Positions 41,640 through 64,000 of a stretch of DNA of 64,000 bases are shown here, piece after piece. Where the stretch lies: assembly GCA_003249955.1 (NCBI GenBank), contig QKHS01000017.1, positions 1 through 64,000 of the forward strand. Direction: 5' to 3'. This DNA comes from Bacteroidales bacterium (GTDB taxonomy: Bacteria; Bacteroidota; Bacteroidia; Bacteroidales; ML635J-15). The notes beneath the pieces were generated by a model. That model was not told where the DNA came from. It made no database searches and saw only the letters and a program-made list of their open reading frames with translations. Both the position numbers and the translations under genes were made by a program. Every line of letters starts with the position of its first letter. Positions within the stretch are counted from its first letter, which is position 1.

Positions 41640-42590
41640 GTGGGTAAGAGGATTATAGTAACCGGAGGTGCAGGTTTTATTGGCAGTAATTTGTGTGATT
41701 ATCTGATAGCAAACAATCATGAGGTAGTTTGCATTGATAGTTTTGATGATTATTATGCTCCGAATATAAAGAGGCAAAACCTGACCAGAGCTTTGACCAA
41801 ACCGGGTTTTATCCTTCTGGAATCAGATATTAAGGATATTGATTTTATCTCAGGTAAACTTAAAGGCAATTTTGATGCAATAATACATCTGGCAGCCAAA
41901 GCAGGAGTAAGATATTCGTTAACACACCCGGTTGGTTATGAAGAAAGTAATGTCGCAGGAACTAAAAACATTCTTGAGCTTGCTGTAGAAAAAAAAATAA
42001 AACAATTTGTATTTGCCTCATCATCAAGCATATATGGCAATGCTCCCGCACCGTTTAACGAAGACTATAATGATTTACATCCTATAAGTCCATACGCGCA
42101 AACCAAGCTTTTTTCCGAAAAAACAGGTAAAGAGTTTTCAGAGAAATATGATATAAATTTTATATCTCTCAGGTTCTTTTCTGTTTACGGGCCAAGATTG
42201 CGTCCCGATCTGGTGATGAATAAGATTGCAGGTAGCATCTACAAAAATGAAAAACTGAAAATATTCGGAGATGGCAGCACTTCACGCGATTACACATATG
42301 TCGATGATATTATCTCCGGCATTATTAAAGCCATTAATTATAAAGAATCAAAATTTGAGACATTTAATCTCGGGAACGGAAACCCGATAAAACTTACCGA
42401 TATTATTTCTTTGTTTGAGCAGGAAACAGGAAAAAAAGTAAATATTGAATTCGTTGATTCTATAAAAGGAGAATCAGATATTACCTGGGCAGATAATTCC
42501 AAAGCAAAAAAAATGATAGGATTTGAACCACAAACAGATATCCGCAAAGGCATTAATAACTATCTGGAATGGTATAAAAGCAAGCTGTAG
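41640..42590 (+). CDS. NAD-dependent epimerase, UDP-glucuronate 4-epimerase-like
   Basis: Extended SDR of 316 residues: TGGAGFIGSN (NAD binding), then DSFDDYYAPNIK, AAKAGVRYSLTHP (a motif of UDP-glucuronate 4-epimerases), the catalytic Ser in ASSSSIYG and YAQTK. It probably interconverts a UDP-uronic acid for polysaccharide synthesis. It starts with GTG, as the promoter box and first conserved residues (GKRIIVTGG) require. It is the first gene of a six-gene operon: export ABC genes follow after 6 nt. Confidence 0.88.
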   Translation: MGKRIIVTGGAGFIGSNLCDYLIANNHEVVCIDSFDDYYAPNIKRQNLTRALTKPGFILLESDIKDIDFISGKLKGNFDAIIHLAAKAGVRYSLTHPVGYEESNVAGTKNILELAVEKKIKQFVFASSSSIYGNAPAPFNEDYNDLHPISPYAQTKLFSEKTGKEFSEKYDINFISLRFFSVYGPRLRPDLVMNKIAGSIYKNEKLKIFGDGSTSRDYTYVDDIISGIIKAINYKESKFETFNLGNGNPIKLTDIISLFEQETGKKVNIEFVDSIKGESDITWADNSKAKKMIGFEPQTDIRKGINNYLEWYKSKL

Positions 42591-42596
42591 TAACTT

Positions 42597-43415
42597 ATGG
42601 AACATAAACTGATAAGCCCGAAAAATAAAATTAGCCTTCACTCCTATTTAAGACTCATATGGGATTATCGCTACTTCTCGCATTCACTTGCAGTTGGTGA
42701 AATAAAGAACAAGCATGCCCGTACTTTTACAGGACTATTTCTTAGCGTAATTCAATCACTGATAGGACTGGCTGTTTACTGGCTGATATTTGGAATCGCG
42801 ATTAAAATTAATACCGGAGATATTCCATATCCGGTTTTTGCATTACCAGGAATAATTGTCTGGCAGTATTTTTCTTATCTTGTAGGAAACAGCAGCGGAG
42901 TTTTAACAAACTCCGAACATCTGATAAACAAACTTTATTTCCCGCGAATCAATCTGACTCTTGCCAAAATTTTGCCGGGACTACTGGATTTCGGAAGCGG
43001 ATTTTTGGTTTTTCTGGTAATATTCCTGATTTTCGGAGTCAGCTTTTCAATAACATGGCTGGCAATTCCACTGGTAGTAATTGTTTTAATTGTTTGTGGC
43101 CTTACTCTTGGGTTATGGACAAGCATTTTGTCACTTTACGTAAGGGATCTCAGCCAGATAATAATTCAGGTTACTAATTTTTTAATTTTCGTAACACCTG
43201 TTTTTTATCCCGGCACTATAGTTCCCGGCAATTTCCGGTTTATTTTGTATCTCAATCCGGTGGCCGGAGTTATAGAATACTTCCGAGCAATCTTATTTGG
43301 CAGTACTTTGCCTGACAATGGATATCTGATAGGATTTGCAATAATTTCGGTTCTGTTTGTTTCGGCAGTTATTGTTTATAAACGAATTGAAAAACAAATT
43401 ACAGATTTGTTATGA
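42597..43415 (+). CDS. ABC-2 type permease for polysaccharide export (Wzm/TagG-like)
   Basis: The 272-residue integral membrane protein has about six hydrophobic helices. It has the ABC-2 polysaccharide-exporter pattern: HSLAVGEIKNKHARTFTGLFLSVIQSLIGLAVYWLIFG, GNSSGVLTNSEHLINKLYFPR, and DLSQIIIQVTNFLIFVTPVFYPG before YLNPVAGVIEYFRAILFG. It pairs with the following ATPase gene (4-nt overlap) to move a lipid-linked glycan across the inner membrane. Confidence 0.88.
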   Translation: MEHKLISPKNKISLHSYLRLIWDYRYFSHSLAVGEIKNKHARTFTGLFLSVIQSLIGLAVYWLIFGIAIKINTGDIPYPVFALPGIIVWQYFSYLVGNSSGVLTNSEHLINKLYFPRINLTLAKILPGLLDFGSGFLVFLVIFLIFGVSFSITWLAIPLVVIVLIVCGLTLGLWTSILSLYVRDLSQIIIQVTNFLIFVTPVFYPGTIVPGNFRFILYLNPVAGVIEYFRAILFGSTLPDNGYLIGFAIISVLFVSAVIVYKRIEKQITDLL

Positions 43416-44662
43416 AAAGCGGGAAAGCCATAATAATAAAGGGATTAAGCAAAGAGTACTATAAAAAGGATTCTTCGACTTCAGGATTTTTTGACAAATT
43501 AAGGCCAAACAAATCAGGACAGTCCTTTTTTGCTCTCAAAGATATTAACCTCGAAATTAATCGCGGTGAAGTAATTGGCATTATTGGTTCAAATGGTGCC
43601 GGGAAAAGCACCCTTTTAAAAATTCTGGCAGAAGTAACTCCCCCAACTTCAGGAAGCGTAGAGGTTTTTGGCAAAGTTGCTTCAATACTCGAAATAGGGA
43701 TTGGATTCCAACCTGAATTATCAGGATATGAAAACATTTTTTTGTCGGGAAAACTTTATGGTCTGACAAAAAAACAGATAATCTCAAAACTGGACAAAAT
43801 AATCGAAATGTTCGGATTTCCTGATTTCATAAATACCGAAGTAAAACACTATTCATCGGGAATGTACATGAGACTGGCCTTTTCGATAATCATCAATATC
43901 GAAGCAGACATTTATTTATTTGACGAGATTTTAAGTGTCGGAGACTCTGTATTTCAGGGGAGAGCATTAAAAGAAATAGAAAAACTCAGAGAAACATCTG
44001 CCACAATTTGTATTGTAACCCATACTCCCAAAATCATATATCACTTATGTGACAGAATGATTTTATTAGACAAGGGAAGTCTTATTTTTAATGAAGATCC
44101 TAACTCCACAATCATAGAGTATCAAAAAGCCTCTTCTTTGAAACAGTCTGAGGTAATATCAAAAAACAATTTCGTTGATGTTAACACATTATCAAATCTT
44201 AAGAGATGTTTCATTGATCTTAACGGAGCTTCGTTTGATTTACTGAATTTTAAAATTTACAATCCCGATCATAATGAAGAAAAAATATGTGGAGATAAAG
44301 AAATAACCGTAGAATTAAATTTCAGTTACATTTCTTCTCAGGATTTCAGATTGATCTTACTTATTCAGGACCAGTACGGAACTGCTATTGTTACTCATTT
44401 TGCCGAAATTGAAAAATCACAGGTAAAAAATGACGTTAACTTATTAATGATTTTTCCTGAAAATTCTCTAAATGCATCAAGGTTTGTTTTTGACGTACTT
44501 ATTTCCGACACCAATAATAAAATAATTATAGGGTACAGAAATATTACCAAGGTCGATATTACTAATGATACCAATAAAATTTCAAGATTCATGGGATATG
44601 TAAATATTCCTGTTAAAAATATAGTTTCTGTAAATAAAAATAAAAATGGAAATACCATTTAA
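43412..44662 (+). CDS. ABC transporter ATPase for polysaccharide export (Wzt/TagH-like)
   Basis: The 416-residue protein has Walker A GSNGAGKS (59-66), the signature YSSGMYMRL, Walker B IYLFDEILSVGD and the H-loop THTPKI. The unusual glycine-poor signature is normal in Wzt/TagH ATPases. Residues from about 245 on form a beta-rich C-terminal domain (EKICGDKEITVELNFSYISS...), as in Wzt proteins that recognise the glycan end. It overlaps the permease by 4 nt and the next gene by 17 nt. Confidence 0.88.
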   Translation: MKSGKAIIIKGLSKEYYKKDSSTSGFFDKLRPNKSGQSFFALKDINLEINRGEVIGIIGSNGAGKSTLLKILAEVTPPTSGSVEVFGKVASILEIGIGFQPELSGYENIFLSGKLYGLTKKQIISKLDKIIEMFGFPDFINTEVKHYSSGMYMRLAFSIIINIEADIYLFDEILSVGDSVFQGRALKEIEKLRETSATICIVTHTPKIIYHLCDRMILLDKGSLIFNEDPNSTIIEYQKASSLKQSEVISKNNFVDVNTLSNLKRCFIDLNGASFDLLNFKIYNPDHNEEKICGDKEITVELNFSYISSQDFRLILLIQDQYGTAIVTHFAEIEKSQVKNDVNLLMIFPENSLNASRFVFDVLISDTNNKIIIGYRNITKVDITNDTNKISRFMGYVNIPVKNIVSVNKNKNGNTI

Positions 44663-45752
44663 TAAGTTCAACACTTTTTATGTAAAGAACAAAAAAGAAA
44701 TTCTTGAAGCTGCAGATAGTGTGCTTTCTTCAGGCGATTACATAAGAGGAGCCGAAATTGAAAAACTAGAGGCTAAGCTTTGCCGGATTTGCAATAGAAA
44801 ATATGCTGTCACAACGGCTTCATGCACAGATGCACTGTTCTTTTCTTTAAAAGCATCGGGAATAACAAAAGGTGACGAAGTTATTATTCCTGACTTTTCG
44901 TATATAGCAAGTCTTAGCCCGGTATTAATGTGCGGAGCTACTCCTGTTTTTGCCGACATAAATAAAGAAGACTTAACGCTCGACACCCGTAAGATTGAAG
45001 ACTTGATAACGGAAAGAACCCGAGCCATAATATTTGTCCAGTTATTCGGAAAATCAGTTGATTTAACCGAGTTAAAAAAAATAACAAAAGCAAATGACAT
45101 TGTATTAATTGAAGACTCTGCTCAGGCTCTTGGTTCGGAAACAAATGGTATTCCAGGTGGTAAAGGCGGAGATGTAAGCTGTATAAGTTTTGACCCGACT
45201 AAAATCGTATCTGCATTCGGTACGGGAGGTGTTTTACTTACTGATAACGAAAACATCTACAATAAGGCACTAAGGTTGGTTCATCATGGAAAAAATATTC
45301 AGAACCAATTTGAAACACTTGGGTATAACAGTAAAATCCCTGAGTTAAACGCTGCAATAATTAATATGCAGTTAACGGGACTTGCAAATATTATCTCAAG
45401 CCATAACGAAATTGCAGATAATTACTTCAACAGATTAAATTCTGTAAAACAAATAAGTCTTATTAAACCTGAAGAAAACCAGATTTCTTCATTTCACAAA
45501 TTTGTAATTAAAGCCGAAAACAGGAACGCTTTACAGAAACATCTTAAAGATTCGGGTATTGAAACAAAAATACACTACAATACTTTGCTGCATGAACATA
45601 AATTATTAAAAGATTTTCCGTTCTTCAGGCACGACACATCGAATGCGGAATATGCAAAATCAAAAGTTTTGAGTTTACCTGTTTTCGACAGTCTTGATTC
45701 GGGCAATATAGATTATATTTGTAACTGTATCATAAATTTTTATCAGCTATGA
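44646..45752 (+). CDS. DegT/DnrJ/EryC1/StrS family sugar aminotransferase
   Basis: PLP-dependent aminotransferase of 368 residues acting on keto-sugar nucleotides. Conserved blocks: ITKGDEVIIPDFSYIASLSPVLMCGATPVFADI, LIEDSAQALGSE, and CISFDPTKIVSAFGTGGVLLTDN with the PLP lysine. RLVHHGKNIQNQFETLGYNSKIPELNAA and the C-terminal small domain follow. It makes an amino sugar, probably acylated by the NeuD-like product next door. It overlaps both neighbours, so translation is coupled. Confidence 0.9.
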   Translation: MEIPFNKFNTFYVKNKKEILEAADSVLSSGDYIRGAEIEKLEAKLCRICNRKYAVTTASCTDALFFSLKASGITKGDEVIIPDFSYIASLSPVLMCGATPVFADINKEDLTLDTRKIEDLITERTRAIIFVQLFGKSVDLTELKKITKANDIVLIEDSAQALGSETNGIPGGKGGDVSCISFDPTKIVSAFGTGGVLLTDNENIYNKALRLVHHGKNIQNQFETLGYNSKIPELNAAIINMQLTGLANIISSHNEIADNYFNRLNSVKQISLIKPEENQISSFHKFVIKAENRNALQKHLKDSGIETKIHYNTLLHEHKLLKDFPFFRHDTSNAEYAKSKVLSLPVFDSLDSGNIDYICNCIINFYQL

Positions 45753-46336
45753 TAATCGTTGGAGCAGGTTCGGCAGGAAAAGAAATAATGGGAGTTTATA
45801 CCCTTGGCAAACCGCCAAAAGAAATTGTCTTCTATGACGACAATCCTGATTGTCCAGACCTCATAGATAATAAATACAAGATCATCAAGACTTTGGAAGA
45901 ACTTCAAAACGAGATAAATAGCAATCCTGAGTTTTGTATCGGCATCGGAAATCCGAGAAAAAGAAAAAAACTGTATGATAAACTGATATCTATGGGCGGA
46001 AAACCGAAAAATATCTGCTGGGAACCTATGCTCAGTTTATCGTCTGTTGAAGACAACGGATCTGTTTTTCAACCAGGTGTCGTAATGTCATTTGGTGTAA
46101 CAATAGGAAAATCATGCTTTATTCATGCAAATTCAAGCATTGGCCACAAAGTAAAAATCGGAGATTTCGTCAATATAAGTCCTCTCTGCTCAGTAATCGG
46201 TCCTTCTGAAATAGGCAATGAATCATATATCGGAGCGGGATCGACCATCCTGCCTGATATTACAATAGGCAACAATGTTTTTGTTAGTCCGGGAAGTGTT
46301 GTAAACAGAAATTTAAAAGATTTCGAAACATTTTAA
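45749..46336 (+). CDS. NeuD/PglD-like sugar O- or N-acyltransferase
   Basis: The 195-residue protein has an N-terminal Rossmann-like PglB_B domain (IIVGAGSAGKEIMG, FYDDNPDC) and a left-handed beta-helix of hexapeptide repeats (FQPGVVMSFGVTIGKSCFIHANSSIGHKVKIGDFVNISP...GAGSTILPDITIGNN). Such enzymes transfer acetyl or similar groups to amino sugars. The helix contains a catalytic-type His in HANSSIGH. The start overlaps the aminotransferase stop by 4 nt (ATGA), consistent with acylation of its product. Confidence 0.86.
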   Translation: MIIVGAGSAGKEIMGVYTLGKPPKEIVFYDDNPDCPDLIDNKYKIIKTLEELQNEINSNPEFCIGIGNPRKRKKLYDKLISMGGKPKNICWEPMLSLSSVEDNGSVFQPGVVMSFGVTIGKSCFIHANSSIGHKVKIGDFVNISPLCSVIGPSEIGNESYIGAGSTILPDITIGNNVFVSPGSVVNRNLKDFETF

Positions 46337-46348
46337 TATTATCTTCTG

Positions 46349-47890
46349 ATGTCGGATAAAAACACAATTATATTATTCTATCCTTTGGTTGATAAATATT
46401 CAATGATACCCAACCTGCCGTTTTCGATAATGAATCTTGAAAGAATGGTCAGGGATTTACCGGTAAGAACAATTTTAATTGACGAAAGAATACAGCCGGA
46501 TTATTTTTCTGAAATCGAAAAACATAAAGACAGCATACTGTTTGTTGGCGTAAGTGCCATGTGTGGTTATCAAATGATATCAGGCCGTAGTTTTTCAAAA
46601 AATGTCAGAGAAATCACAGATGCAAAAATTGTATGGGGCGGATGGTTCTCCAGCGTTTCGCCGGAACTTGCCATAAATGAGCCTTTTATCGATTATATAA
46701 TTTGTGGGCAGGGCGAAATTCCATTCAGAAAGGTTACTGAAGCATTGCTTTACAACACAGAATTAAAAACTATTGAAGGACTGGGTTTTAAAACGGATAA
46801 AGGGATTCATATTAACGAGCCGCCTCCTGTTGTAAATGATAAGACATTTCCTGAAATTAATTTTGAAGCTATTGATATTAATAAAATTATTGAGATAAAC
46901 GGCTGTACAGATTTGCATAGCAGAAGTCTCAATTATATTTCAAATTCAGGTTGCCCGTATAACTGCACTTTTTGTTGCTTACCATCGGTATGGGGCCAAA
47001 AATCATTTAGTAAAGATCTGGATATTGTTACTAATGATCTGAAAAAGCTAAATACAGAATATGAAGTTTTTAAGATTGGCTTTAATGATGACAATTTTTT
47101 CAGCAAGCATTCTTTTGTTATGTCTCTATGCCAGAATCTTATAAAAAACAAAACAAATTTTGAATGGGAAGCAAATGCACACATTGAGTATTTCCTGAAC
47201 AACTATTCAGTCGAAGACATAAATACTCTTTACGATGCCGGATGTCGTTCAATAAAGTTTGGAGTAGAATCAGGAGATCAGACAGTATTAGATAAAATAA
47301 ATAAAAAAACTTCTATCGGATCTTGCCTGAAAGTTGCAGAATTATTGTCGCATTTTAAAATCAAATGTGTTTTTTACATTATGATTGCATTCCCATGGAA
47401 TCCTGACAAAGACTTTAAACTTACATTAAACTTTTTAAGCAGGGCAAAACTAATAAACCCAAGACTTGAAACTGGTATAAATTTCTTTATTCCGCTTCCA
47501 AAAACTCCACTTTACGAAGAAGCTATAAATTATGGTTTCCCTCCATTTACAAGTTTTGACAACATGGTCGAATTTATATCAACTCCCTTTGTTGCCCCTT
47601 GGTGGAGAAAAAACTACAGAAACGAATTACATGATTTTTTATGGTTTTATTTTAAATATGCAAACCCGCATCATTATAAAATAAAAAATGTAAAAATCAG
47701 AAAACTGGATTTTATTGTAAATAAGTTTTTCTACCCTGTTTGCTGGCTAAGACTAAAAACAAAATGCCGGAAATTTAGATTAGATGCCAGATTATATTTT
47801 CTGGGCAAAAGAATTTTCGATAAAATTACAAACAACAAATTTGCTGATAATGCCGAAGTAATCGGAAGATGTAAATCGTGGAACAGATAA
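46349..47890 (+). CDS. B12-binding-domain radical SAM protein
   Basis: The 513-residue protein has an N-terminal B12-binding-like fold (about 30-140: FVGVSAMCGYQMISGRSF, IVWGGWFSSVSPELAIN, ICGQGEIPFRKVTEALL), which lacks the base-off DxHxxG motif. The radical SAM core follows, with Cys202, Cys206 and Cys209 in SGCPYNCTFCCLPSVWG, then a C-terminal extension of about 120 residues (KIKNVKIRKLDFIVNKFF). Such enzymes methylate or rearrange unactivated carbons. Its place at the end of the sugar operon suggests modification of the sugar or of an acyl product. Its stop abuts the convergent enoyl-reductase stop exactly. Confidence 0.85.
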   Translation: MSDKNTIILFYPLVDKYSMIPNLPFSIMNLERMVRDLPVRTILIDERIQPDYFSEIEKHKDSILFVGVSAMCGYQMISGRSFSKNVREITDAKIVWGGWFSSVSPELAINEPFIDYIICGQGEIPFRKVTEALLYNTELKTIEGLGFKTDKGIHINEPPPVVNDKTFPEINFEAIDINKIIEINGCTDLHSRSLNYISNSGCPYNCTFCCLPSVWGQKSFSKDLDIVTNDLKKLNTEYEVFKIGFNDDNFFSKHSFVMSLCQNLIKNKTNFEWEANAHIEYFLNNYSVEDINTLYDAGCRSIKFGVESGDQTVLDKINKKTSIGSCLKVAELLSHFKIKCVFYIMIAFPWNPDKDFKLTLNFLSRAKLINPRLETGINFFIPLPKTPLYEEAINYGFPPFTSFDNMVEFISTPFVAPWWRKNYRNELHDFLWFYFKYANPHHYKIKNVKIRKLDFIVNKFFYPVCWLRLKTKCRKFRLDARLYFLGKRIFDKITNNKFADNAEVIGRCKSWNR

Positions 47891-48658
47891 TTAAACAAGT
47901 TGTTCTCCCCCGTCCACCCGGATAATATCACCGGTTATCCATGATGCCTGATCAGAAATTAAATAAAGAACTGCTTTTGCAACATCCAATGGAACAGTAA
48001 GCCTGCCGGAAGGGTTTGCGGACTTCATTCCACTTATAAAGCTTTCATGTGAGCTAAAAACTCTTAATGCCAATGTATCTATCACTCCGGCATTAATAAG
48101 ATTAACAGTAATTCCCCTTGGAGCAAGTTCTATCGCCATATACTTACACGAAGCTTCAAGTGCTGCTTTTGCAATCCCCACAGCAGCATACTCTTTTAAT
48201 ACTTTTGTACTGCCCATGCTTGTAAAACCGATAATTCTGCCACCGGAATGCATAAATTCTTTTTGAACCAAAAACTGAGACCAGGATACAAAAGACGCGG
48301 CCATAGACTGAAAAGTATAAACCAGATTCTCATTATTCAGCACACGCTCTGTCCCGAATAAATTACCTACATTAGCATCTGCCGCTGCATGAATAAATAC
48401 TTTCACAATCCCCTTATTCTTTCCTTCAAGAAATTTTGAAACTGAGTCTATGGTTGAATCATCATTAACATTCATATTAAAAGCAACAACTTCAGTTCCA
48501 TTTGACCTCAACTCATCAAAACGCTTTTCAATCTCATGCATTTTTGACCTTCTGTCTTTATGAACAATAATCAAATCAAAATTATTTTCAGACAACAACT
48601 TTGCACATGAAAAACCTATTCCGCCTGTTCCGCCTGTAATTATTGCTATTGGTCTCAT
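47891..48658 (-). CDS. FabL-like enoyl-[ACP] reductase (SDR family)
   Basis: The 255-residue SDR has TGGTGGIGFSC for NADPH binding. Its active site is not the usual Y-x3-K but EYAAVGIAKAALEASCKYMA, which is Y-x6-K, the spacing of enoyl reductases. The next block GITVNLINAGVIDTLALRVF resembles FabL of Bacillus (Y-x6-K, then VNAVSGGAIDTDAL from memory). I therefore call it a FabL-like enoyl reductase, not a ketoreductase. It would complete the reductive cycle with the ketosynthases and dehydratase at 50.4-53.4 kb. Stops of this gene and the rSAM gene touch at 47890/47891. Confidence 0.68.
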   Translation of the reverse strand: MRPIAIITGGTGGIGFSCAKLLSENNFDLIIVHKDRRSKMHEIEKRFDELRSNGTEVVAFNMNVNDDSTIDSVSKFLEGKNKGIVKVFIHAAADANVGNLFGTERVLNNENLVYTFQSMAASFVSWSQFLVQKEFMHSGGRIIGFTSMGSTKVLKEYAAVGIAKAALEASCKYMAIELAPRGITVNLINAGVIDTLALRVFSSHESFISGMKSANPSGRLTVPLDVAKAVLYLISDQASWITGDIIRVDGGEQLV

Positions 48659-49182: not shown

Positions 49183-50304
49183 TTATTCCCTATCCTTTTC
49201 ATTTAACAGCAAATCTTTTATTTTATTCATTCTTAAATAATTCTTAAAGCTGCTGATTGTCTGATTTTCAATGTCTTTCAATTCAGAATCATTTAAATCT
49301 TCAATAAAGCAAGTTGGGTCTTCGGCAAAGACATTACCTGTTTTATAATACGACATTACCCTGCATCCGCCACAGGTGTTTGTAAACCTGCAACTACCGC
49401 ATTTCCCGTCAAGATTTTTTCTGTCAATAATTTTCACAAACAATTCCGATTCAAATAATATTTCCTTTAAAGGAGTTTCCATAACATTACCACCGCTGAC
49501 ATGGTCGGCAAAAAGCGGGCAAGGCGAGACTTCACCTTCAGGATTAATTGAATAATACGAACCTACCCAACATCCTACACTTGGATTCAGAGGTATCTGA
49601 TCCTCGCTAAAGTCCTGTCCGGTAAGCTCTGTATATACTTCGGGAGGTAACATATAGGGAACGTAACTTATCTGTCCGTTAAAGTATTTTCTTAATGCAG
49701 GATGAAAATATTCTTTCAGCGATTCCTTATTTATCATCAGGTTCTCTGCCGGACAATTACGCGGAACAAACGGGATACGGTTAAACGGGAGAGCAAGATC
49801 TTTGATACTTTTTACTGTATTTTCAAAAGAATGCTTGTTAAACTCCCCGATTGTAACACACATGTTTATTTTTATACCATACTTGTTAATTCTTTCAATC
49901 GCCTTTATTACGTTTTCTGTTTCCGTATCTCTTGTATTTTTGTTTTCCGGATCAAAAGAATTTATTCCCAACGAAATAATAAGATTATTGCCCAGAAGAG
50001 ACTTAAGTTCTGCCAGTTTACTATCCGACAAAGTGCTTCCGTTACTGACTACCCCGATTATAAAGCCAAGTTCATTTGCTTTTTTTAATATTTCAATATG
50101 ATCTTTCCTGAGCAAAAATTCGCCTCCTGAAAAATCAATAAATTTTGTACCCAGTTCCCGTGCAGGCTCAAGTATTTTTGAAACAACAGAATCGAAGTCA
50201 AGATCTGTGTATTTCTTCTCTTTTGACGAACCTGTTGAGCAGTATTGACAGGAAAAATTACAATTTCTTGTAGTTTCAAAATACAGAGTGTGAAATTTAT
50301 TCAT
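49183..50304 (-). CDS. Radical SAM/SPASM domain protein
   Basis: The 373-residue protein starts directly with the radical SAM motif: Cys15, Cys19 and Cys22 in TRNCNFSCQYCSTGSSKEKK, then IDFSGGEFLLRKDH and IISLGINSF. The C-terminal SPASM region has many cysteines (GCWVGSYYSINPEGEVSPCP, LDGKCGSCRFTNTCGGCR, then EDPTC) for extra 4Fe-4S clusters. SPASM enzymes modify peptides or small molecules such as sugars (dehydrogenation, thioether formation). No precursor-peptide gene is seen nearby, so a small-molecule or carrier-bound substrate is plausible. Confidence 0.86.
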   Translation of the reverse strand: MNKFHTLYFETTRNCNFSCQYCSTGSSKEKKYTDLDFDSVVSKILEPARELGTKFIDFSGGEFLLRKDHIEILKKANELGFIIGVVSNGSTLSDSKLAELKSLLGNNLIISLGINSFDPENKNTRDTETENVIKAIERINKYGIKINMCVTIGEFNKHSFENTVKSIKDLALPFNRIPFVPRNCPAENLMINKESLKEYFHPALRKYFNGQISYVPYMLPPEVYTELTGQDFSEDQIPLNPSVGCWVGSYYSINPEGEVSPCPLFADHVSGGNVMETPLKEILFESELFVKIIDRKNLDGKCGSCRFTNTCGGCRVMSYYKTGNVFAEDPTCFIEDLNDSELKDIENQTISSFKNYLRMNKIKDLLLNEKDRE

Positions 50305-50384: not shown

Positions 50385-50419
50385 CTTATCATTTACGTTT
50401 AGCCGGAAATTAGCATTAT

Positions 50420-54837: not shown

Positions 54838-56325
54838 CTATTCCGACTTATAAAAATAACCCAGCACGATTTCCAGATCTTCGGGTTTAATCTGCTCCAT
54901 AACCAACAATATTGTTGCAAACAAATCGGTATCCCCAAGATTTTTATAAAACATTTTCTGAAAAGCAGTATCTCTGGATAACAGGCTATCCGTAATCGCG
55001 ATATTTCTGTGAATTGTTGCAGTATCAAAGCTTTTAACCTCATCCTTTAAAAACACACCGGTAGCTTTTATCATTTCTTCACGACCAGTAATATCAATCT
55101 GCTCATCCGCAACATAATGCTCATACAATTTGTGCATCAATTCTTTTTTCGCCAGCATTTTCTCAAACAAACCGCTGATTATAAAGAGAATATGTGTCTC
55201 CGGTTTTTGTACTTCTCCCAACAAAACTTTTGGCAAAACAGTATTGCCGGAATAATAATTAAATTTTATTTCATTTTCACTTACAAAAAGTGCAGGATTT
55301 ACATAAGCAAGAATTTCAATATTTTTCCCGCAAACCCATAGCTTATCAGACCAATACCCCACTCCTTTCCCCTTGCAATCTACTGTTGCTGTTGATTCAA
55401 AAACCGCGTTATTAGCTCCGGCAATAACCAGCGGAATCTGAACAAAACCGCAATAACTGTCCAGAATAGTTATTTTGCACACCGGAGAAATAAGGCTATC
55501 TGTAAAAACCGGAAATTCTACAATGCTATTTGGAGGAAGCTTAAAATTACCTGCCGGCCAGTTTACATTATCAAGCAATAAATTATCAAGACTGTCCGAA
55601 GCGGAACTTTTGTAAATATTTTCCAGATATGGAGAATATTCTTCAACAAAATTCTGAGAAATGCAAAAGTGCGGATATCTGGTTTCAATGCTGCAAACTG
55701 TCAACTGCCCCGAATCTTTTTTTATTTCTTCAACAGATGCTATCCTGTTATTACTGTTAACGAGACAAATCCCGAAGTCAGGGTCCAGCATCATCCATTT
55801 TTCTCCGTCATAAACTTCGGGAAACAGGTGAAAATCAAGCAGTTTATTAACTCTGGTTTTATAACCCATTTGCTGCCATATCATGCAAAGCGCGGCAGAT
55901 CTCACGTCACAAAGCCCATAACCAACTGAGTTAAACAACATACCGGGAGAATAGGTAATTTTCTCTCCTGCCGCATAAGAAGCATGATGAAAAGAAAAAT
56001 TACCGGCAAATATCCATGCCTGAATTATCTCTTTTTCTGTATTATAACAATCTTCGACAGGAATCTGCTGTATAAAGTTTATCATTGAATCAGGAGAAAA
56101 CCAGAATAAGTTATTGAGGCTGAATGTAAAATCAAGTCCTGCCCCGCTTGTATCTTCGATGTAAATATACGGCAAAACAGAATCCGGACCGGCTGACTGT
56201 GAAAGCTGTATTGATACCTGACTTTCTTCCTTTATAACCAGGCTATCTTTATTATGCCCACAGGCAATCAGAAGCTGTAAAGCTAAAGCAAAAAACAATA
56301 AAACCAGACCTCTGTTTCCTGACAT
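54838..56325 (-). CDS. Lipoprotein with a transglutaminase-like domain
   Basis: The 495-residue protein has a lipobox LLIAC with Cys22, so it is membrane anchored. Residues about 95-190 form a transglutaminase-like papain fold with Cys139 (GYGLCDVRSAAL), His166 (DFHLFPEVY) and Asp181 (MLDPDFGIC), a complete triad. The rest is beta-rich and unassigned, with a C-terminal helical part. It might hydrolyse or cross-link peptide or amide bonds in the envelope. It lies 39 nt upstream of the twitch rSAM gene on the same strand, so the two may be one operon. Confidence 0.75.
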   Translation of the reverse strand: MSGNRGLVLLFFALALQLLIACGHNKDSLVIKEESQVSIQLSQSAGPDSVLPYIYIEDTSGAGLDFTFSLNNLFWFSPDSMINFIQQIPVEDCYNTEKEIIQAWIFAGNFSFHHASYAAGEKITYSPGMLFNSVGYGLCDVRSAALCMIWQQMGYKTRVNKLLDFHLFPEVYDGEKWMMLDPDFGICLVNSNNRIASVEEIKKDSGQLTVCSIETRYPHFCISQNFVEEYSPYLENIYKSSASDSLDNLLLDNVNWPAGNFKLPPNSIVEFPVFTDSLISPVCKITILDSYCGFVQIPLVIAGANNAVFESTATVDCKGKGVGYWSDKLWVCGKNIEILAYVNPALFVSENEIKFNYYSGNTVLPKVLLGEVQKPETHILFIISGLFEKMLAKKELMHKLYEHYVADEQIDITGREEMIKATGVFLKDEVKSFDTATIHRNIAITDSLLSRDTAFQKMFYKNLGDTDLFATILLVMEQIKPEDLEIVLGYFYKSE

Positions 56326-56900: not shown

Positions 56901-58759
56901 ATGGCTCTACCCATTAATACAGATGAAATATTAAACGGGAATACGGTTGAATGGGAACGTATCGAATTAAAAAAAGGATGGAATCCGGAAGATATCATTC
57001 ATTCGTTGTGTGCTTTTGCCAATGATATTAATAACTGGGACGGTGGCTATATAATTATTGGAGTTGAAGAAGAAAACGGGAAAGCAAAACTCCCTCCGTT
57101 TGGATTAAACCCCGATCAATTAGATTCTATCCAGAAAAAAATAATTGAATTATCTTATAAAATAACACCAACCTACATTCCTGTCTTTCAACCTTATTTA
57201 AAGAATGGAAAACATATTCTTATTATTTTTTCTCCGGCAGGAGACAATCGTCCTTATAAGGCACCAATAAGTCTTAGTGAAAAGAAACCTGAAAAGGCAA
57301 TGTATGTTAAACGAGGGTCAAAAACTATCCGTGTCAAAGACGGATCTGATGATGAAAGAAGATTGATTGAACTTACTGCCCGTATTCCTTTTGACGACAG
57401 GATAAATCAGTTTGCAACTCTTAATGATTTGAGTTTACAACTGATTCAATCGCATTTGAAAGAAGTTATGAGTTCTTTATATGAAGAAAGTACTAAAATT
57501 TCTTTTCCTGATTTATGCAAACATATGCGGATCGCAAAAGGGTCAGATGAATTATTAAGGCCGACAAACGCCGGTTTATTACTGTTTAATGAACATATCC
57601 AGAACAGTTTTTTGCCGGAGCTAAAATTGAAGTTGTAATCCATAAAAATGAAGTTGGTAAAGATTATATAGAGAAAATATTTACCGGATCAATAGTACAT
57701 CAATTAAGGGATGTCCTGAACTATATCAAGAACAATATTATTCAGGAAGAAGTTTTCAAAACGTCAAGAAATGCAGAAGCAATAAGATTCTATAATTATC
57801 CTTATCAGGCCATTGAAGAAGCCGTTGTTAATTCAGTTTTTCACAGAAGTTACGAAAGAGAGAACCCTGTCGAAATACAAATTCATCCTGACAAAATTGA
57901 AATATTAAGTTTCCCCGGGCCATTACCTCCTGTTAATAAAGAGATGCTTAAAAAGGAACGGGTTGTAGCCAGAGAGTACCGCAATCGTAAAATAGGAGGA
58001 TTTTTAAAAGAGTTAAAATTAACCGAAGGACGCGGGACCGGGTTGCCGATCATTTACTCAAGTTTGGAAAAAAATGGTTCCCCACCACCGATATTTGAAA
58101 CCGATGACGATAATTCGTATTTTTTGAGTATCATAAAAATTCATCCTTTGTCTAAATCTTTGGCTCCTATTAGAGCCAAAGATGGAGCCAAAGATAAAAT
58201 ACTAACAATCAGCACTTTAGGTAAAAAAGACAATTATCTTAGGCCTTTTGAGAACCTAGAAGAGAACAAAGTTGAAGACAGTGTAAAAAACTATTTAAGT
58301 ACAACTACTTTAAACTTAAGCACTACAGATTTCAATATTTTATTGCATTGTATAAAACCCAGAACAAGGGAAGAGATATTCAAATTCATAGCATTATACA
58401 ACAACAGTAAAAATTTTAACAGACACATTAAACCAATTATTGATATTGGTTGGCTGCAATTAACCATACCCGAAAAGCCAACCAGTAAAAATCAAAAATA
58501 TGTAATTTCAGAATATGCCAAAAAGTTGATAGCCAACTCCAAAAACATAAATAAAAGGATTGCGGTTGATTCGCCAAATATTGCCTCAGTTGGATACGAC
58601 AGAGAAAACAGAATTCTTGAAATAGAGTTTCATCATGGAGATGTTTATCAATATTTTAATGTGCCGGGATATGTGTATAATGAGTTAATGAATGCAAGTT
58701 CTATCGGGAGTTATTTTATAAATGAAATTAAGAAAAAATATAATTACAAAAAAGAATAA
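56901..58759 (+). pseudogene. AlbA_2/HATPase-type ATP-binding protein with KTSC domain, frameshifted
   Basis: The N-terminal frame (from 56901) has an AlbA_2 DNA-binding domain (VEWERIELKKGWNPEDII, GGYIIIGVEEE, residues about 16-100) and runs to a stop at 57638. The continuing frame shows an HATPase-like part (AIEEAVVNSVFHR, PDKIEILSFPGPLPP, EGRGTGLPII) and a C-terminal KTSC domain (IASVGYDRENRILEIEFHHGDVYQYFNVP). One extra T in the run 57608-57613 restores a single frame of 619 residues over 1860 nt. AlbA_2 proteins are often regulators linked to mobile or defence genes. The break may be a homopolymer sequencing error or real decay. Confidence 0.75.
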
Positions 58760-58927: not shown

Positions 58928-58935
58928 TATTTTTG
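58928..58935 (+). promoter_or_regulatory. -7 box of the acyl carrier protein operon
   Basis: TATTTTTG fits TAnnTTTG, 17 nt before the ATG at 58953. A TTTA at 58904-58907, 20 bp upstream, may serve as the -33 element. Confidence 0.45.
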
Positions 58936-58952
58936 TTAAAAACAATTAATCA

Positions 58953-59195
58953 ATGAAAAACATCAGGGAAAACGTAATAGACGTATTGAAGAAATATACC
59001 TTCAATAAAGAAGTCTGGGTTGGATTTAACGACAATACAAATATTATCAGAGATTTAAAAATCAATTCTGCCAGATTAGTTGACATTGTTCTTGATCTTG
59101 AAGAGTTGTACGATATAGAAATTCCGGACAGCGATCTGGAAAAGCTCACATGTTTCAGCGATATTATTAAGCTCATAGAAGAGAAAACCAAATAA
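58953..59195 (+). CDS. Dedicated acyl carrier protein
   Basis: The 80-residue acidic helical protein has the carrier pattern: LKINSARLVDIVLDLEELYDIEIPDSDLEKL. The Ser in NSA corresponds to the phosphopantetheine attachment Ser of DSL in ordinary ACPs, so the usual DSL is changed to NSA. The change around the attachment site and the location away from housekeeping fatty-acid genes mark it as a specialised carrier, probably for the ketosynthase set at 50.4-53.4 kb. The gene is 4 nt before a glycosyltransferase. Confidence 0.8.
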   Translation: MKNIRENVIDVLKKYTFNKEVWVGFNDNTNIIRDLKINSARLVDIVLDLEELYDIEIPDSDLEKLTCFSDIIKLIEEKTK

Positions 59196-59199
59196 TATT

Positions 59200-60177
59200 A
59201 TGCAGGACAAAACCAATGATATCATTCTCGAAATTGCGGTACTCACTTATAACCACAAGGATTTTATTATTGACTCTCTTAACTCTGTTTTAAACCAGAC
59301 AACCTCATACAATTACAAAATAATTATTCTTGACGACTGTTCTTCTGACGGGAGTTCCGGTCTTATTCAAAGTCTGGCAAATCAGTATCCTGATAAAATA
59401 GATTATCACGTTAACGATAAAAACTCAGGTCCGGTAAAATCGGCAATAAAACTGGCGGGTTTGTTAACTGCAAAATATGCCTGCTTTATGGACGGAGATG
59501 ATTATTGGTGCAATGAATTAAAAATCCAGAATCAGATTGATTTTCTGGAAAACAACGAGGACTTTGCAGGCTGTTTTCACGATGCTAAAATAGAACAGAT
59601 AAACAGCAGCGATGATATCGACTTTCTTCACAGGACACAAACATACTGGAAGACATACTCACAGTTCAACAGATATTCCGGCATTTTTATGCCCTGGGCA
59701 TTAATCCAGAGAAATATTATTCCAACCGCGTCTCTTATTTTCAGAAATCCCGGGCTTTTAAACTTTTTAGAAAACTATAAAGCTTCTGAATTATCATTAA
59801 GCTGGGCTTTACATCTTGAAATTATAAAAAACAGCAAACTTAAATATTTCAACGAAATTTGGTCTGTGTATAATGACCACTCCGAAGGGATTTCAAAAAA
59901 GCACAAAATTTCAACATTCAAACTGAATAATATTTTAATACTTGAAAGTTTGCTTGAAGATAATTACTGGAAATATTATTCAGCAGATATTTACCGTAGT
60001 ATATGCACAGAATACAGGTTTTTGCTTAAATCTCAGGAGATTTTAAGTCTGGAAAAACCAGAATTTAACAGGCATCTGCGAAAATATAAAAGCTATTTAA
60101 AGCTCATGCTTAAATCAGATATAAAACAACTAAAAGAAGATCATATTAATGTGCGGAATAACGGGATGGTGGACTAA
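59200..60177 (+). CDS. Family 2 glycosyltransferase
   Basis: The 325-residue GT-A fold enzyme has AVLTYNHKDFIIDSLNSVLNQTT, KIIILDDCSSDGS (nucleotide-sugar binding) and the DxD motif in FMDGDDYW. It transfers a sugar from an activated donor to an acceptor in the cytoplasm. It is the second gene of the operon ACP-GT2-AsnB-rSAM, suggesting action on an ACP-borne or lipid-borne acceptor. It overlaps the asparagine-synthetase-like gene by 29 nt. Confidence 0.88.
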   Translation: MQDKTNDIILEIAVLTYNHKDFIIDSLNSVLNQTTSYNYKIIILDDCSSDGSSGLIQSLANQYPDKIDYHVNDKNSGPVKSAIKLAGLLTAKYACFMDGDDYWCNELKIQNQIDFLENNEDFAGCFHDAKIEQINSSDDIDFLHRTQTYWKTYSQFNRYSGIFMPWALIQRNIIPTASLIFRNPGLLNFLENYKASELSLSWALHLEIIKNSKLKYFNEIWSVYNDHSEGISKKHKISTFKLNNILILESLLEDNYWKYYSADIYRSICTEYRFLLKSQEILSLEKPEFNRHLRKYKSYLKLMLKSDIKQLKEDHINVRNNGMVD

Positions 60178-61957
60178 AGACTATCCCATTAACCGGGAGC
60201 TGTTTGACACGATGCGTGATACTCTGACACATCGTGGTCCTAATGGTTACGGCTCATATTTTTCCGAAAACAACAACATTGCACTGGGACACAGACGTTT
60301 ATCATTTCTGGATTTAAGCGAAAGCGGAAAACAACCGTTGTGCAACGAGGACAAAACAATATGGCTTACCATTAACGGAGAAATATACAATTACATTGAA
60401 TTACGTGAAATTCTTAAAGCTAAGAATCATATTTTCAAATCAGACACAGATTCCGAAGTCGTTATTCATGCTTATGAAGAATGGGGAACAGACATGATCA
60501 ACATGCTGGAAGGTATGTTTGCATTTGGCCTCTGGGACGAGAAAAATCAAAAGCTTATCCTTGCAAGAGATAAATTCGGAATAAAACCGATATATTATTT
60601 TATTGACAATCAACAGGTTATATTTGCTTCTGAAATAAAAGCAATAATTAAAAATCCTGATATTAAACGTGATATCGATTACAACTCGCTATGTGAATAT
60701 TTTATTTACAGATATGTTCCCTCTCCAAAAACTATTTTTAAAAGTATTTATAAAATTGAACCCGCACATTTTATTACGATATCCGCCGGATTAAAAGTTG
60801 ACAAAACAGAATATTACAGATTAAAAACTGACAATTGCAGCACAAATAGACGAACACTTGTAAAAGAAACCGACAAACTAATTAAAAAATCTGTAGGTAT
60901 TCATATCCGCAGCGATGTAAAAGTAGGATCATTTTTGAGCGGAGGTTACGACTCAACTTTATTGGTAAAATACTTTTCTGAATTTGAAAAAGGTTTCAAC
61001 ACCTTCTCTTTAGGTTTTGAAAACTGGGACAATTCCGAGCACCTTTTTGCAGAAACGGTTTCAAAAAAATTTAAAACGGTACAACATTCCGAAGTTCTCA
61101 AAGATTCAAGTCTGGAAATACTTAACGATTTGATGTATTTTTATGACGACCCTATTGCCGACATATCAATTATTCCGACATATCAGGTTTCCAGGCTGGC
61201 TTCAAAGTACAATAAAACTGTTTTATCGGGCGAAGGAGCCGACGAACTTTTTGCAGGTTACACATGGCACAGAGAATACCTGTGGCATATTGACCGCAAA
61301 ACTCTTAAAGATTCAAAAAAGTGGGGTTGGAATTTGCCGGTAAATAATTTTGATATTGATAGTTATTCCAAAGCAATGGCTATGGGCAATTTTGATACAG
61401 ATGGACTAAAAACATTGCTGAACCCGAATCTGCATTCATTTATTCCCGAAGATGTAACTGCCTTTTATGCCGGTTTCTACAACAAAAATATTCCGGCGCC
61501 AAAACGCTTTCAGATAATGGATATAAAATGCTTTATGGGAGAACTTGTTTTAACAAAAGTTGACCGGGCAAGCATGGCCAATTCTTTAGAAGTAAGAGTG
61601 CCTTTTCTTAACTCGGAGATTTGCGAAAAAATGTTAAGCCTTTCGCCTGAGGCATACTTTGACAAAAAAAAACAAAAAATAATTATTTACAAATTGTTAA
61701 AAAAAGACTTACCCAAATCAATTCTGAAACGTAAAAAACAAGGCTTTACAGGACCTGACAAATATTACATGAACTTTGACTGGTATTCCGCTACACTTAA
61801 AAATTCAAATCTGGTAAAAGCCGGAATAATTAACGCGGAGTCAATAAAAAAATACATAGAAGACAAGGATCATTGGAGATTGTGGAAGATTGTTGTATTA
61901 GAAAAATGGTTTGAAAAATGGATATGTAACACAGAAAAAAATGCTTTGGAAGAATAA
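60149..61957 (+). CDS. asnB: AsnB-like glutamine-dependent amidotransferase
   Basis: The 602-residue protein starts MCGITGWW, so Cys2 is the nucleophile of an Ntn glutaminase domain (about 1-190; THRGPNGYG, TINGEIYNY). The synthetase domain with PP-loop-like LSGGYDST (SGGxDS) follows, and also GEGADELFAGYTWHRE and KVDRASMANSLEVRVPFL. It can make asparagine, but AsnB homologues inside glycan clusters often amidate uronic acids or other carboxylates. Start at 60149 is required by Cys2. Confidence 0.88.
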   Translation: MCGITGWWTKDYPINRELFDTMRDTLTHRGPNGYGSYFSENNNIALGHRRLSFLDLSESGKQPLCNEDKTIWLTINGEIYNYIELREILKAKNHIFKSDTDSEVVIHAYEEWGTDMINMLEGMFAFGLWDEKNQKLILARDKFGIKPIYYFIDNQQVIFASEIKAIIKNPDIKRDIDYNSLCEYFIYRYVPSPKTIFKSIYKIEPAHFITISAGLKVDKTEYYRLKTDNCSTNRRTLVKETDKLIKKSVGIHIRSDVKVGSFLSGGYDSTLLVKYFSEFEKGFNTFSLGFENWDNSEHLFAETVSKKFKTVQHSEVLKDSSLEILNDLMYFYDDPIADISIIPTYQVSRLASKYNKTVLSGEGADELFAGYTWHREYLWHIDRKTLKDSKKWGWNLPVNNFDIDSYSKAMAMGNFDTDGLKTLLNPNLHSFIPEDVTAFYAGFYNKNIPAPKRFQIMDIKCFMGELVLTKVDRASMANSLEVRVPFLNSEICEKMLSLSPEAYFDKKKQKIIIYKLLKKDLPKSILKRKKQGFTGPDKYYMNFDWYSATLKNSNLVKAGIINAESIKKYIEDKDHWRLWKIVVLEKWFEKWICNTEKNALEE

Positions 61958-63278
61958 AATAAAACCAACTGTTGAGAAAGAAGTTATTGATAAATACCTT
62001 GAATTCAGTTCGGGGAAATTACCGGTTTGCAATGCTCCTTTTTCATCACTTTATTTTCATCCTGACGGAGAAGTCGGGTCATGCTGTTTGAACAAAACAT
62101 GGTATTCTCTCGGTAAGTATCCGGGACAAACACTTAGCGAAATTATTAATTCCAGAAACCGGAAATTACAACAAAGATACATTGCTAAAAATAACTTATC
62201 TCTGGGCTGCAACATTTGTAACGAAAATCTTAATTCCGGTAATTTCGCCGGAGTAATGGCCTTCGATTACAAAAATCTGAAACCGGATAATAAAATACGT
62301 AGAATCGACTTTGAACTGTCAGACTTTTGCAATTTTAACTGTGTTATGTGCGAAAGAGATAAATCGGACAAAAAAATAATTTATGATGATGCTTTCATTA
62401 AAGAATTGTACCAGTATCTTATAAAACTGAAATCGACAAACTTTCTGGGTGGTGAACCTTTTCTGATTAAGATATATTATAAAATATGGGATATCATAAT
62501 CAACGAAAACCCGGAATGCAATATTAATATTCAAACCAATGGCAGTGTTTACAACGAAAAGATAGCAGAACTTGCAAAAAACAAAAAAGTTTTCATTTCG
62601 TTATCAATTGATTCTGTAAAAAAAGAAACTTACGAATTTATCAGGAAGGGCAGCGACTTTAATTTAATAATGAAAAACTTCAGCCTCTTCAATTCTGCTA
62701 TGTCAGAAAAAAAACACAGCATGTATATCTCGGTCTGTCCTACAGTTTACAATTACAAAGAAATTCCCGACATCGTAAAGTTTGCAAATGACAATAAATG
62801 TCGTATATTTTTTAACAGGGTAATGTCTCCTTTAAACATAAGCCTCGAGAGCAGAACAACAGAAGAGTACGATAAAATCTTAAATATTTATGAATCAGCG
62901 TATGAGAATATGCCTTCCGATAAATTAGCAGGCATTACCAACAAAAGGACATTCAACGATTTTATCAACTTAATCCGATCGCTCCGGCAAAAATCTGCTA
63001 CTGACAATAAAGTTTCCATTTCGTGTGACTATGTAAGAAACATTATTAAAAACAGAAAAAACGAAACCAATAAAAATAAAATAGAATTAATCGAAGATGT
63101 CCTGGCCGAATATTATAACGACTGGAAAATATCTCCGCGAAAAACCGGATTATTAGCCAGCGATTTCTTCTGGCAGGATTATGAAAACCTGTTCGAAACA
63201 GACAAGTCTGCTACTGAAATTATTTCAATAATTAAAAACTTTCTTGAACTGGAGAACAACAATGTTCCGCTGGAATAA
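61941..63278 (+). CDS. Twitch-domain radical SAM protein with N-terminal SPASM-like clusters, copy 2
   Basis: The 445-residue protein has Cys30, Cys48, Cys49, Cys90 and Cys93 as the auxiliary-cluster region (VCNAPFSS...GEVGSCCLN...GCNIC). The radical SAM core has Cys130, Cys134 and Cys137 in SDFCNFNCVMCE, then TNFLGGEPFLIKIYY and ISLSIDSV. It is a clear paralogue of the protein at 53416-54798 (GGEPFLIK.YY.IW, NP.C.I, TNG.V.NEKI). The ATG at 61941 overlaps the AsnB gene by 17 nt. A longer in-frame start at 61911 is possible. Confidence 0.84.
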   Translation: MLWKNKIKPTVEKEVIDKYLEFSSGKLPVCNAPFSSLYFHPDGEVGSCCLNKTWYSLGKYPGQTLSEIINSRNRKLQQRYIAKNNLSLGCNICNENLNSGNFAGVMAFDYKNLKPDNKIRRIDFELSDFCNFNCVMCERDKSDKKIIYDDAFIKELYQYLIKLKSTNFLGGEPFLIKIYYKIWDIIINENPECNINIQTNGSVYNEKIAELAKNKKVFISLSIDSVKKETYEFIRKGSDFNLIMKNFSLFNSAMSEKKHSMYISVCPTVYNYKEIPDIVKFANDNKCRIFFNRVMSPLNISLESRTTEEYDKILNIYESAYENMPSDKLAGITNKRTFNDFINLIRSLRQKSATDNKVSISCDYVRNIIKNRKNETNKNKIELIEDVLAEYYNDWKISPRKTGLLASDFFWQDYENLFETDKSATEIISIIKNFLELENNNVPLE

Positions 63279-63320
63279 AAAATTAAATAATATTTGTATT
63301 TTTAGAGCTAAATTTTTAGA

Positions 63321-64000
63321 ATGAACACTTTTGTTTTTGTCGTATGCGGAGGCCGGGAACATATCGAAGAATTAAATTTTTCGCTGAAATTTTTACGCCA
63401 TTACTCAAAAAACAAGATAGTTGTAATAACAGACTCCGGACGTAACGAAATAAAAATTGATCATAACAATATTATTGACATAGAAACCCCGCGGGAATTT
63501 AACAACCATCAGGCAAGTATTTATCTTAAGACTTCTATAAACAAATTTCTGGAAAAGGGCAATAACTACTGTTATCTTGATGGCGACATTGTTGCTGTTG
63601 ACCCAAAAGTTGATGAAATATTTAATCACTTTGTAAGCCCTGTTTCTTTTGGCTCAGATCACTGTAAAATAAACGAGTTCAGTCCGCATGCAATAAACTG
63701 CAGTTGCGAAGAAGAAGTAATTGAAAAAGAAAAATTCTTCAATTCAAAACTGGCTGAACTATTCGGAAAAATAAATCTATCTGATGAAATAATAAAAAAA
63801 CAATCCGAAGAACTTCTTTCTGTTTTCAAGAAGTACAGTGCAAAACCTGTAAAGCATTTGTTTAAAACCACCAGCTATTTATTGAAAAGATATATTATTC
63901 CTTTGAAATCGTTTAAATTACAAGGATATAAATTCAATAAAAAGAACAGATGCTGGTACAACAACAATGGTAATATCATATTGTTTGACTATGGATTTTA
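63321..64000 (+). CDS. Glycosyltransferase-like protein, incomplete at the window end
   Basis: A frame of 226 codons starts at the ATG 63321 (MNTFVFVVCGGREHIEELN) and is open to the last base. It has an alpha/beta beginning (VVITDSGRNEIKI) and a DxD-like motif in YCYLDGDIVAVDPKVDEIF (about residues 90-110), as in GT-A glycosyltransferases of the GT8 type. The remainder is Lys-rich and unassigned. It follows the twitch rSAM gene by 42 nt and probably continues the operon. Confidence 0.72.
   Translation, partial: MNTFVFVVCGGREHIEELNFSLKFLRHYSKNKIVVITDSGRNEIKIDHNNIIDIETPREFNNHQASIYLKTSINKFLEKGNNYCYLDGDIVAVDPKVDEIFNHFVSPVSFGSDHCKINEFSPHAINCSCEEEVIEKEKFFNSKLAELFGKINLSDEIIKKQSEELLSVFKKYSAKPVKHLFKTTSYLLKRYIIPLKSFKLQGYKFNKKNRCWYNNNGNIILFDYGF

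Follow-up and report, generated by a model that had tools for sequence, protein, structure and literature searches.

The O-antigen R-group genes wfpC-wfpG of Flavobacterium psychrophilum represent the nearest described pathway to the locus reported here; as described, they provide a dedicated acyl carrier protein (ACP), two ketosynthases and the PglD homologue WfpG, which is predicted to transfer an ACP-made 3,5-dihydroxyhexanoyl group to a 4-amino sugar (PMC6519341). According to the published account, the ladderane candidate clusters of Kuenenia combine fatty-acid enzymes, including several FabF paralogues of which some have altered active sites, with four radical S-adenosylmethionine (SAM) enzymes and phytoene-desaturase-like genes (PMC2649909). 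Here we describe a locus from a Bacteroidales bacterium (assembly GCA_003249955.1; 4.70 Mb in 101 contigs) in which an acyl-ACP line and four radical SAM genes stand beside genes for glycan assembly and export. The locus occupies positions 41,640–64,000 of the stretch analysed (the window), which comprises bases 1–64,000 of the 67,241-base contig QKHS01000017.1. Working from the sequence of the window alone, an earlier reading (the original prediction) had proposed that these genes build a single acylated, radical-SAM-modified, exported glycan, and that their combination matches no named cluster.

Pfam and NCBIfam scans of the locus confirmed the predicted inventory gene by gene. On the forward strand, a first block encodes a GalE-like epimerase, a Wzm-like permease, a Wzt-like ATPase, a DegT-type aminotransferase, a NeuD/PglD-type acyltransferase and a B12-binding radical SAM protein. 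A FabL-like short-chain dehydrogenase/reductase (SDR) and a SPASM radical SAM enzyme follow on the reverse strand, and then a FabZ-like dehydratase and two ketosynthases, KS1 and KS2, on the forward strand. The radical SAM gene Twi1 and a lipoprotein-like gene (both reverse) are succeeded by a broken Schlafen/AlbA-like gene and by a final forward block comprising the ACP, a GT2 glycosyltransferase, an AsnB-like amidotransferase, the radical SAM gene Twi2 and NT63, a GT8-like protein. Many same-strand neighbours overlap or are spaced by 12 bases or fewer. Co-inheritance, synteny and the ketosynthase tree support well the conclusion that these genes act in a joint pathway, which we regard as very likely. 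To this extent the original prediction gains support; its further claim, that the product is one acylated, radical-SAM-modified glycan, stands as a proposal.

Co-inheritance was assessed by searching one set of 247 genomes from the order with six profiles, with strict thresholds and with the best first-look candidates scored in each genome, so that copy numbers are lower bounds. The SPASM profile (E<=1e-70) matched 10 of the 247 genomes, and the NeuD (E<=1e-45) and NT63 (E<=1e-50) profiles matched the identical ten; GT2 (E<=1e-60) and Twi (E<=1e-50) each reached nine and KS (E<=1e-120) eight. All matches of the six profiles fall within ten genomes representing six families, and there are none elsewhere in the sample; in some of the ten the modules lie on different contigs, and the KS match in G264 and the NT63 match in G077 are partial. 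Fisher's p for SPASM and NeuD is 5.2e-18, or 3.5e-15 when the window's genome (G000) and G021 are excluded, values which ignore shared ancestry. The SPASM, KS and NeuD matches in other families are not circular, since these profiles held sequences of family f1 only. Of the 31 genomes of the family, 17 carry the cassette KS and 11, all of them among those 17, carry SPASM (p 1.5e-4). Across a sample of 395 genomes from the phylum, SPASM was matched in one, the window's own.

The gene set also recurs as physical runs, so that the possibility of homologues occurring only separately, which would speak against a joint pathway, is rejected. A KS1 relative, 62% identical, led to L004 (the same genome as G015, Bacteroidota MAG USDE_maxbin.100), in which DegT, NeuD, a B12 radical SAM gene (26% identical), three Twi genes, SPASM, FabZ, KS1, KS2, ACP, GT2, AsnB, Twi2 and NT63 form one run; the runs of G001, G025 and G004 are closely similar. 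G003 carries GalE-Wzm-Wzt-DegT-NeuD, FabL/SPASM, FabZ-KS and GT2-AsnB-NT63 in one run, and G011 has the same modules on several contigs. The same ThrC-like and AOS-like neighbours, 79% and 87% identical, place the G003 set at the same chromosomal site as the window. Short versions are found in the same-genus genomes G024 (FabZ-KS-FabL-SPASM-NeuD-Twi-Twi) and G006 (FabZ-KS-FabL-SPASM-NeuD-Twi, with GT2 and NT63), between era-like and rpsP-like genes (identified by eye), with the exporter absent from the examined pieces. Outside the family, G119 has an almost complete set on a single contig; the modules are also kept together in G056 and G093, where the acyl genes are on a different contig from the SPASM-NeuD pair. 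In G119, G220, G029 and G027, ACP and GT2 are separated by a phosphopantetheinyl transferase (PPTase)-like gene, and such a gene adjoins the ACP in G056; the G119 gene, the one on which Pfam was run, matches PF01648 with 26.7 bits against a cut-off of 25.

We tabulated 17 genomes, the USDE_maxbin.100 genome being listed as L004. The rows were picked for cassette matches and the counts, which depend on the genome pieces examined, are lower bounds: FabZ 16, KS, SPASM, NeuD and GT2 15 each, Twi 13, ACP 12, DegT and NT63 11 each, FabL 10, AsnB 9, Wzm and Wzt 6 each, and PPTase 5. AsnB, Twi2 and NT63 were double-counted in the G000 row, where two pieces overlap. Beyond this tabulation, Wzm and Wzt were additionally seen in G001, G003, G011 and G015. 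In G021 (L116:9824-11982) a GT2-NT63 pair adjoins plsX (by eye), about 70 kb from the cassette KS on the same contig.

A grouping of the ketosynthases with housekeeping FabF, the other finding that would have spoken against a joint pathway, is likewise rejected. KS1 (50875..52149, +) and KS2 (52142..53419, +), both with PF00109/PF02801, belong to a set of 18 cassette ketosynthases that a 100/100 branch splits from 14 others drawn from six of these genomes; unlike housekeeping FabF, they do not group with the other ketosynthases of their own genome. KS1 and KS2 fall in separate clades, starred in the tree, each common to G001 and L004, and the pair is hence older than the split of these genomes. 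Two proteins with 30% identity to KS1 (L005 and L006) were treated as ordinary ketosynthases and set aside. Eleven aligned rows of cassette ketosynthases show no variation at the active-site Cys, the two His or the Lys; with this Cys-His-Lys-His set kept, neither KS1 nor KS2 is a chain-length factor. In aryl polyene and flexirubin pathways a ketosynthase is paired with a chain-length factor that lacks the active Cys. Both window ketosynthases, by contrast, keep this Cys, and the SDR scores 101.8 bits against a FlxB cut-off of 340. In G027 (L207:471-7438), three cassette-type ketosynthases and two ACPs occur within about 7 kb.

The remaining acyl genes retain their catalytic features. FabZ (50420..50878, +; PF07977, 2.6e-8) has His52 and Glu66 invariant in 8 of 8 aligned rows. 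The dedicated ACP (58953..59195, +; PF00550) carries the motif DLKINSAR, exact in six of eight cassette ACPs compared and near-identical in the remaining two. The FabL-like SDR (47891..48658, −) is of the enoyl-reductase type: its nearest solved relative is the enoyl-ACP reductase 3oic (E 2.7e-32), with FabI entries next, and the Y-x6-K spacing of enoyl reductases is found in 10 of 11 cassette SDRs, the exception being G029 with Y-x3-K. Two SDRs with Y-x3-K spacing map elsewhere in the window, one of ketoreductase type at 164-961 and one at 37851-38648, neither within the cassette.

Sugar and export functions are concentrated in the first block. The epimerase (41640..42590, +; PF01370/PF16363), which we take to be UDP-glucuronate 4-epimerase-like, has 5u4q and 6zl6 as its nearest solved chains and reaches no NCBIfam cut-off among the 25 matches listed. 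An ABC-transporter-dependent route of glycan export is indicated by the Wzm permease (42597..43415, +; PF01061 (ABC2_membrane), 4.1e-11), whose relatives in G001, G003, G011 and G015, 71–83% identical, likewise stand next to the epimerase and Wzt genes, and by the Wzt ATPase with its C-terminal extension (43412..44662, +; PF00005 (ABC_tran)), which scores 163.4 bits with NF050108, under the cut-off of 400. The DegT aminotransferase (44646..45752, +; PF01041, 1.8e-93) has QdtB and WbpE among its solved relatives. It adjoins the NeuD-type protein (45749..46336, +; PglD_N and hexapeptide domains), which scores 139.5 bits with TIGR03570, under the cut-off of 160.8, and whose best solved relative is VioB (7txp); PglD, perosamine N-acetyltransferase and LpxD are also listed. 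In this the two resemble the aminotransferase and N-acyltransferase partners that act on 4-amino sugars, such as VioA/VioB and PglE/PglD. In those systems the amino sugar is N-acetylated from acetyl-CoA, whereas the window has a dedicated ACP line; the co-inheritance of ACP, KS, dehydratase and enoyl reductase with NeuD suggests that NeuD draws its acyl group from this ACP.

In comparison with wfpC-wfpG as described, a likeness that rests on the description and not on direct sequence comparison, the locus shares the dedicated ACP, two ketosynthases, a PglD-homologue acyltransferase and a sugar aminotransferase. It differs in that wfp has a ketoreductase, whereas the cassette SDR is a Y-x6-K protein nearest FabL/FabI and no dedicated 3-ketoacyl-ACP reductase is present in the cassette; and in that Wzx/Wzy was expected for wfp, whereas the window locus has ABC export, a dehydratase, an enoyl reductase and radical SAM enzymes. 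The word 'radical' is absent from the main text of that paper (PMC6519341). By title and abstract start, the open-access literature searched yielded no paper that brings radical SAM chemistry together with both a glycan locus and acyl-ACP synthesis. The claim that no named cluster matches thus holds for the open-access literature searched, but two precedents were not considered in the original prediction: the acyl half closely parallels the published description of wfpC-wfpG (PMC6519341), and the ladderane candidates, in the account cited above, already unite four radical SAM enzymes with fatty-acid genes (PMC2649909).

This second precedent raises the alternative that the acyl module makes a lipid, an unusual fatty acyl or lipid anchor of ladderane-like logic, which is then glycosylated, NeuD only acetylating the sugar. 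Besides the resemblance in gene content to the published ladderane candidates (PMC2649909), TIGR04072 (lipid biosynthesis B12/radical SAM) appears among the sub-cut-off matches of the B12-binding protein (46349..47890, +; PF04055 and PF02310), whose 23 NCBIfam matches all fall short of their cut-offs, and in G264 a 1-acyl-glycerophosphate acyltransferase (by eye) lies beside ACP and FabZ. Such an acyltransferase-like gene was noticed at that one locus only, however, and NeuD and SPASM share the same ten genomes of the order sample. Unlike the ladderane candidates as published (PMC2649909), the window has intact ketosynthases together with glycan and export genes, and no member of the phytoene-desaturase family is found among the 55 contig proteins scanned. 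On this evidence we consider a lipid product unlikely.

The gene of the SPASM radical SAM enzyme (49183..50304, −; PF04055 and PF13186) usually adjoins FabL where both were detected. Counting the window's, 13 genomes have the two, which are adjacent in 11 of them and lie on different contigs in G056 and G093; in G003, G006, G011, G021 and G024 the two overlap on the same strand. That the enoyl reductase adjoins a radical SAM gene suggests radical functionalisation of the reduced chain. Most characterised SPASM enzymes act on peptides, and the Foldseek matches of Twi1 include SkfB, anSME and SuiB, both of which would fit a system for ribosomally synthesised and post-translationally modified peptides in which the SPASM and twitch proteins mature a peptide. 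The 524-bp gap beside SPASM, the one gap searched systematically, holds only four frames, of 21–24 aa (ATG/GTG/TTG starts, at least 20 aa), and the overlap of SPASM with FabL also runs counter to a peptide role, which we judge very improbable. A structure model of the SPASM enzyme, built from a two-sequence alignment, was discarded (mean pLDDT 45.5), and PADLOC matches of SPASM and Twi1 to prokaryotic viperins were read as superfamily-level similarity only.

Twi1 (53416..54798, −) and Twi2 (61911..63278, +; in the AsnB-Twi-NT63 slot) both combine a radical SAM core with a SPASM/twitch domain at the N-terminus (each PF04055 and PF13186). They resemble family NF033640 in this domain, the cluster cysteines and the CxxxCxxC core, but score below its curated cut-off of 170 (153.8 and 141.8 bits, respectively); to our knowledge the family has no assigned substrate. 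Cys23, 41, 81, 84, 122, 126 and 129 are invariant in 16 of 16 aligned rows, CxxxCxxC and four N-terminal cysteines being kept throughout. An AlphaFold2 model of Twi1 (pLDDT 84.3, with a good core) matches radical SAM folds; since its best 50 Foldseek matches are general radical SAM enzymes (SkfB, viperin, anSME, MoaA, BlsE and others), it names no substrate. In a tree of 67 Twi proteins from the locus pieces examined, the AsnB-Twi-NT63 slot proteins of five genus members form one clade (SH-aLRT 99), and three more groups each unite four or five genus genomes with support of 99–100. The simplest reading of the tree suggests that each slot-specific group performs a different dedicated step; the agreement of slot and clade is confined to the genus, as the AsnB slot of G119 and G197 is occupied by other Twi groups.

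The breadth of the Twi family bears on a further alternative, in which an acylated-sugar pathway and an independent Twi/glycosyltransferase pathway are neighbours that merely share surface-glycan islands. At E<=1e-30 Twi is found in 21 of the 31 family genomes (up to 11 matches in one genome), compared with 17 for KS and 11 for SPASM, and G220 is without Twi at E<=1e-50, as two separate pathways would allow. Conversely, all nine genomes with Twi at E<=1e-50 in the order sample are cassette genomes, the profile having held members of four of them, and Twi genes sit inside the AsnB-NT63 slot and form slot-specific clades within the genus. We therefore think it improbable that two pathways are involved.

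Several further observations concern Twi genes elsewhere. A clade of single Twi genes near lipA/lipoate ligase (by eye) occurs in G000, G014 and G005 (L048:10390-11895, L054:15009-16499, L055:10266-11756), G000 being the window's genome and the other two having no cassette KS matches. Among 32 of 80 IMG/VR loci annotated, contigs classed as viral (L118-L149), some with phage-like genes by eye, carry Twi relatives; some have tandem arrays of about four, with small GDSL-like (by eye) proteins and a B12 radical SAM-like gene, and some an apparent split version consisting of a short Cys-rich protein and a separate radical SAM protein. No SPASM relatives were found on the viral contigs searched.

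For the joint pathway we propose a specific product, at about even odds: an acyl-ACP line supplies NeuD, which N-acylates an amino sugar, and the sugar is assembled into a radical-SAM-tailored glycan exported by Wzm/Wzt. The system would consist of three modules, for acyl synthesis, for the sugar and its export, and for assembly. KS1, KS2, FabZ and the FabL-like enoyl reductase would assemble a short acyl chain, the dedicated ACP serving as its carrier and the general pool supplying a ketoreductase (the ketoreductase-type SDR at 164-961). DegT would produce the amino sugar nucleotide, and the NeuD/PglD-type enzyme would N-acylate it from acyl-ACP. The radical SAM enzymes may tailor the acyl chain or the sugar, the SPASM substrate being most likely the reduced acyl chain, otherwise the recipient amino sugar. 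The GT2 glycosyltransferase (59200..60177, +; PF00535), the AsnB-like protein (60149..61957, +; PF00733 and PF13537), the twitch radical SAM enzymes and NT63 would then build and tailor the glycan before Wzm/Wzt exported it. NT63 (63321..64000, on to contig 64,556, +) has no Pfam match; it carries a YLDGD motif, its GT8-like label was given by eye, and its alignment has nine rows. With the UDP-glucuronate-epimerase-like protein in the same locus, AsnB perhaps forms a uronamide. More tentatively, SPASM may functionalise an unactivated position of the saturated ACP-bound acyl group before NeuD moves the acyl to the amino sugar, each slot-specific Twi adding a separate change to the glycan.

Against this proposal, the following points have to be set. 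DegT is absent from the examined pieces in 6 of the 17 tabulated rows and ACP in 5, and the examined pieces of six SPASM genomes (L004, G001, G027, G057, G264 and G077) showed no FabL-like gene. The GT2, Twi and NT63 matches in the order sample are partly circular, because these profiles included members from some of the ten genomes. At E<=1e-70, SPASM is missing from six of the 17 family KS genomes (G008, G009, G010, G018, G019 and G029), and some versions of the pathway thus dispense with the SPASM step. Of these six, G018 and G019 retain the enoyl reductase, and in G008 and G010 both genes are absent next to the ketosynthase; SPASM and reductase are thus not obligate partners, and a strict pairing, which fitted the first 11 cassette SDRs, was ruled out by G018 and G019. 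The NeuD-type enzyme may have an acetyl-CoA-type function; the AsnB-like protein scores above the cut-off of TIGR01536, a model of plain asparagine synthase (447.8 against 267.1 bits); and Twi genes also occur outside the cassette. As the original prediction had remarked of the window, no PPTase or recognised glycan polymerase is in view, and none was found among the 55 contig proteins scanned with Pfam; nor were initiating or chain-terminating glycan enzymes recognised among these proteins, the remainder of the genome not having been searched for them.

The other genes of the region are less readily placed. The lipoprotein-like protein (54838..56325, −) has no Pfam match of its own and is weakly transglutaminase-like, one of four aligned relatives having a sub-threshold PF01841; the family recurs at L037:11165-13147, L004:20252-21268, L079:489-2024 and L084:3795-5294, and may have the exported glycan, or the carrier of that glycan, as its substrate. 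Between this gene and the ACP lies the Schlafen/AlbA-like gene, broken into two open reading frames (56901..58759, +; PF04326; PF13619, PF21247, PF13749), which the original prediction had left unmentioned. L004 has no such gene between KS and ACP, and it is probably an insertion, not a part of the pathway. Upstream, 37851-41346 holds an SDR, a glyoxalase-type gene and a low-GC AAA_14/DUF4143 ATPase between the ThrC-like gene and the epimerase; in G003 these two genes are direct neighbours, so this stretch may also be an insertion. Reading past 64 kb to the contig end adds the remainder of the GT8-like protein (to 64,556), a GIY-YIG gene and, on the reverse strand, a group of genes that includes a GT2. 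Rfam and tRNA scans of the window returned no matches. Two C10 peptidases, one C25 peptidase and two small proteins, all bearing the Por_Secre_tail sorting domain, are encoded at 15602-29874, from which the host probably has type IX secretion; that the exported glycan may anchor Por_Secre_tail cargo is an idea only.

The gene set described here is co-inherited, has a patchy distribution and links radical SAM chemistry with the synthesis of acyl-ACP and the assembly of a surface glycan. It gives the twitch radical SAM enzymes, which are abundant in the family, a defined context for substrate tests, and, if the proposal is true, radical-SAM tailoring of a glycan would be a novel route to diversity among the surface sugars of bacteria.

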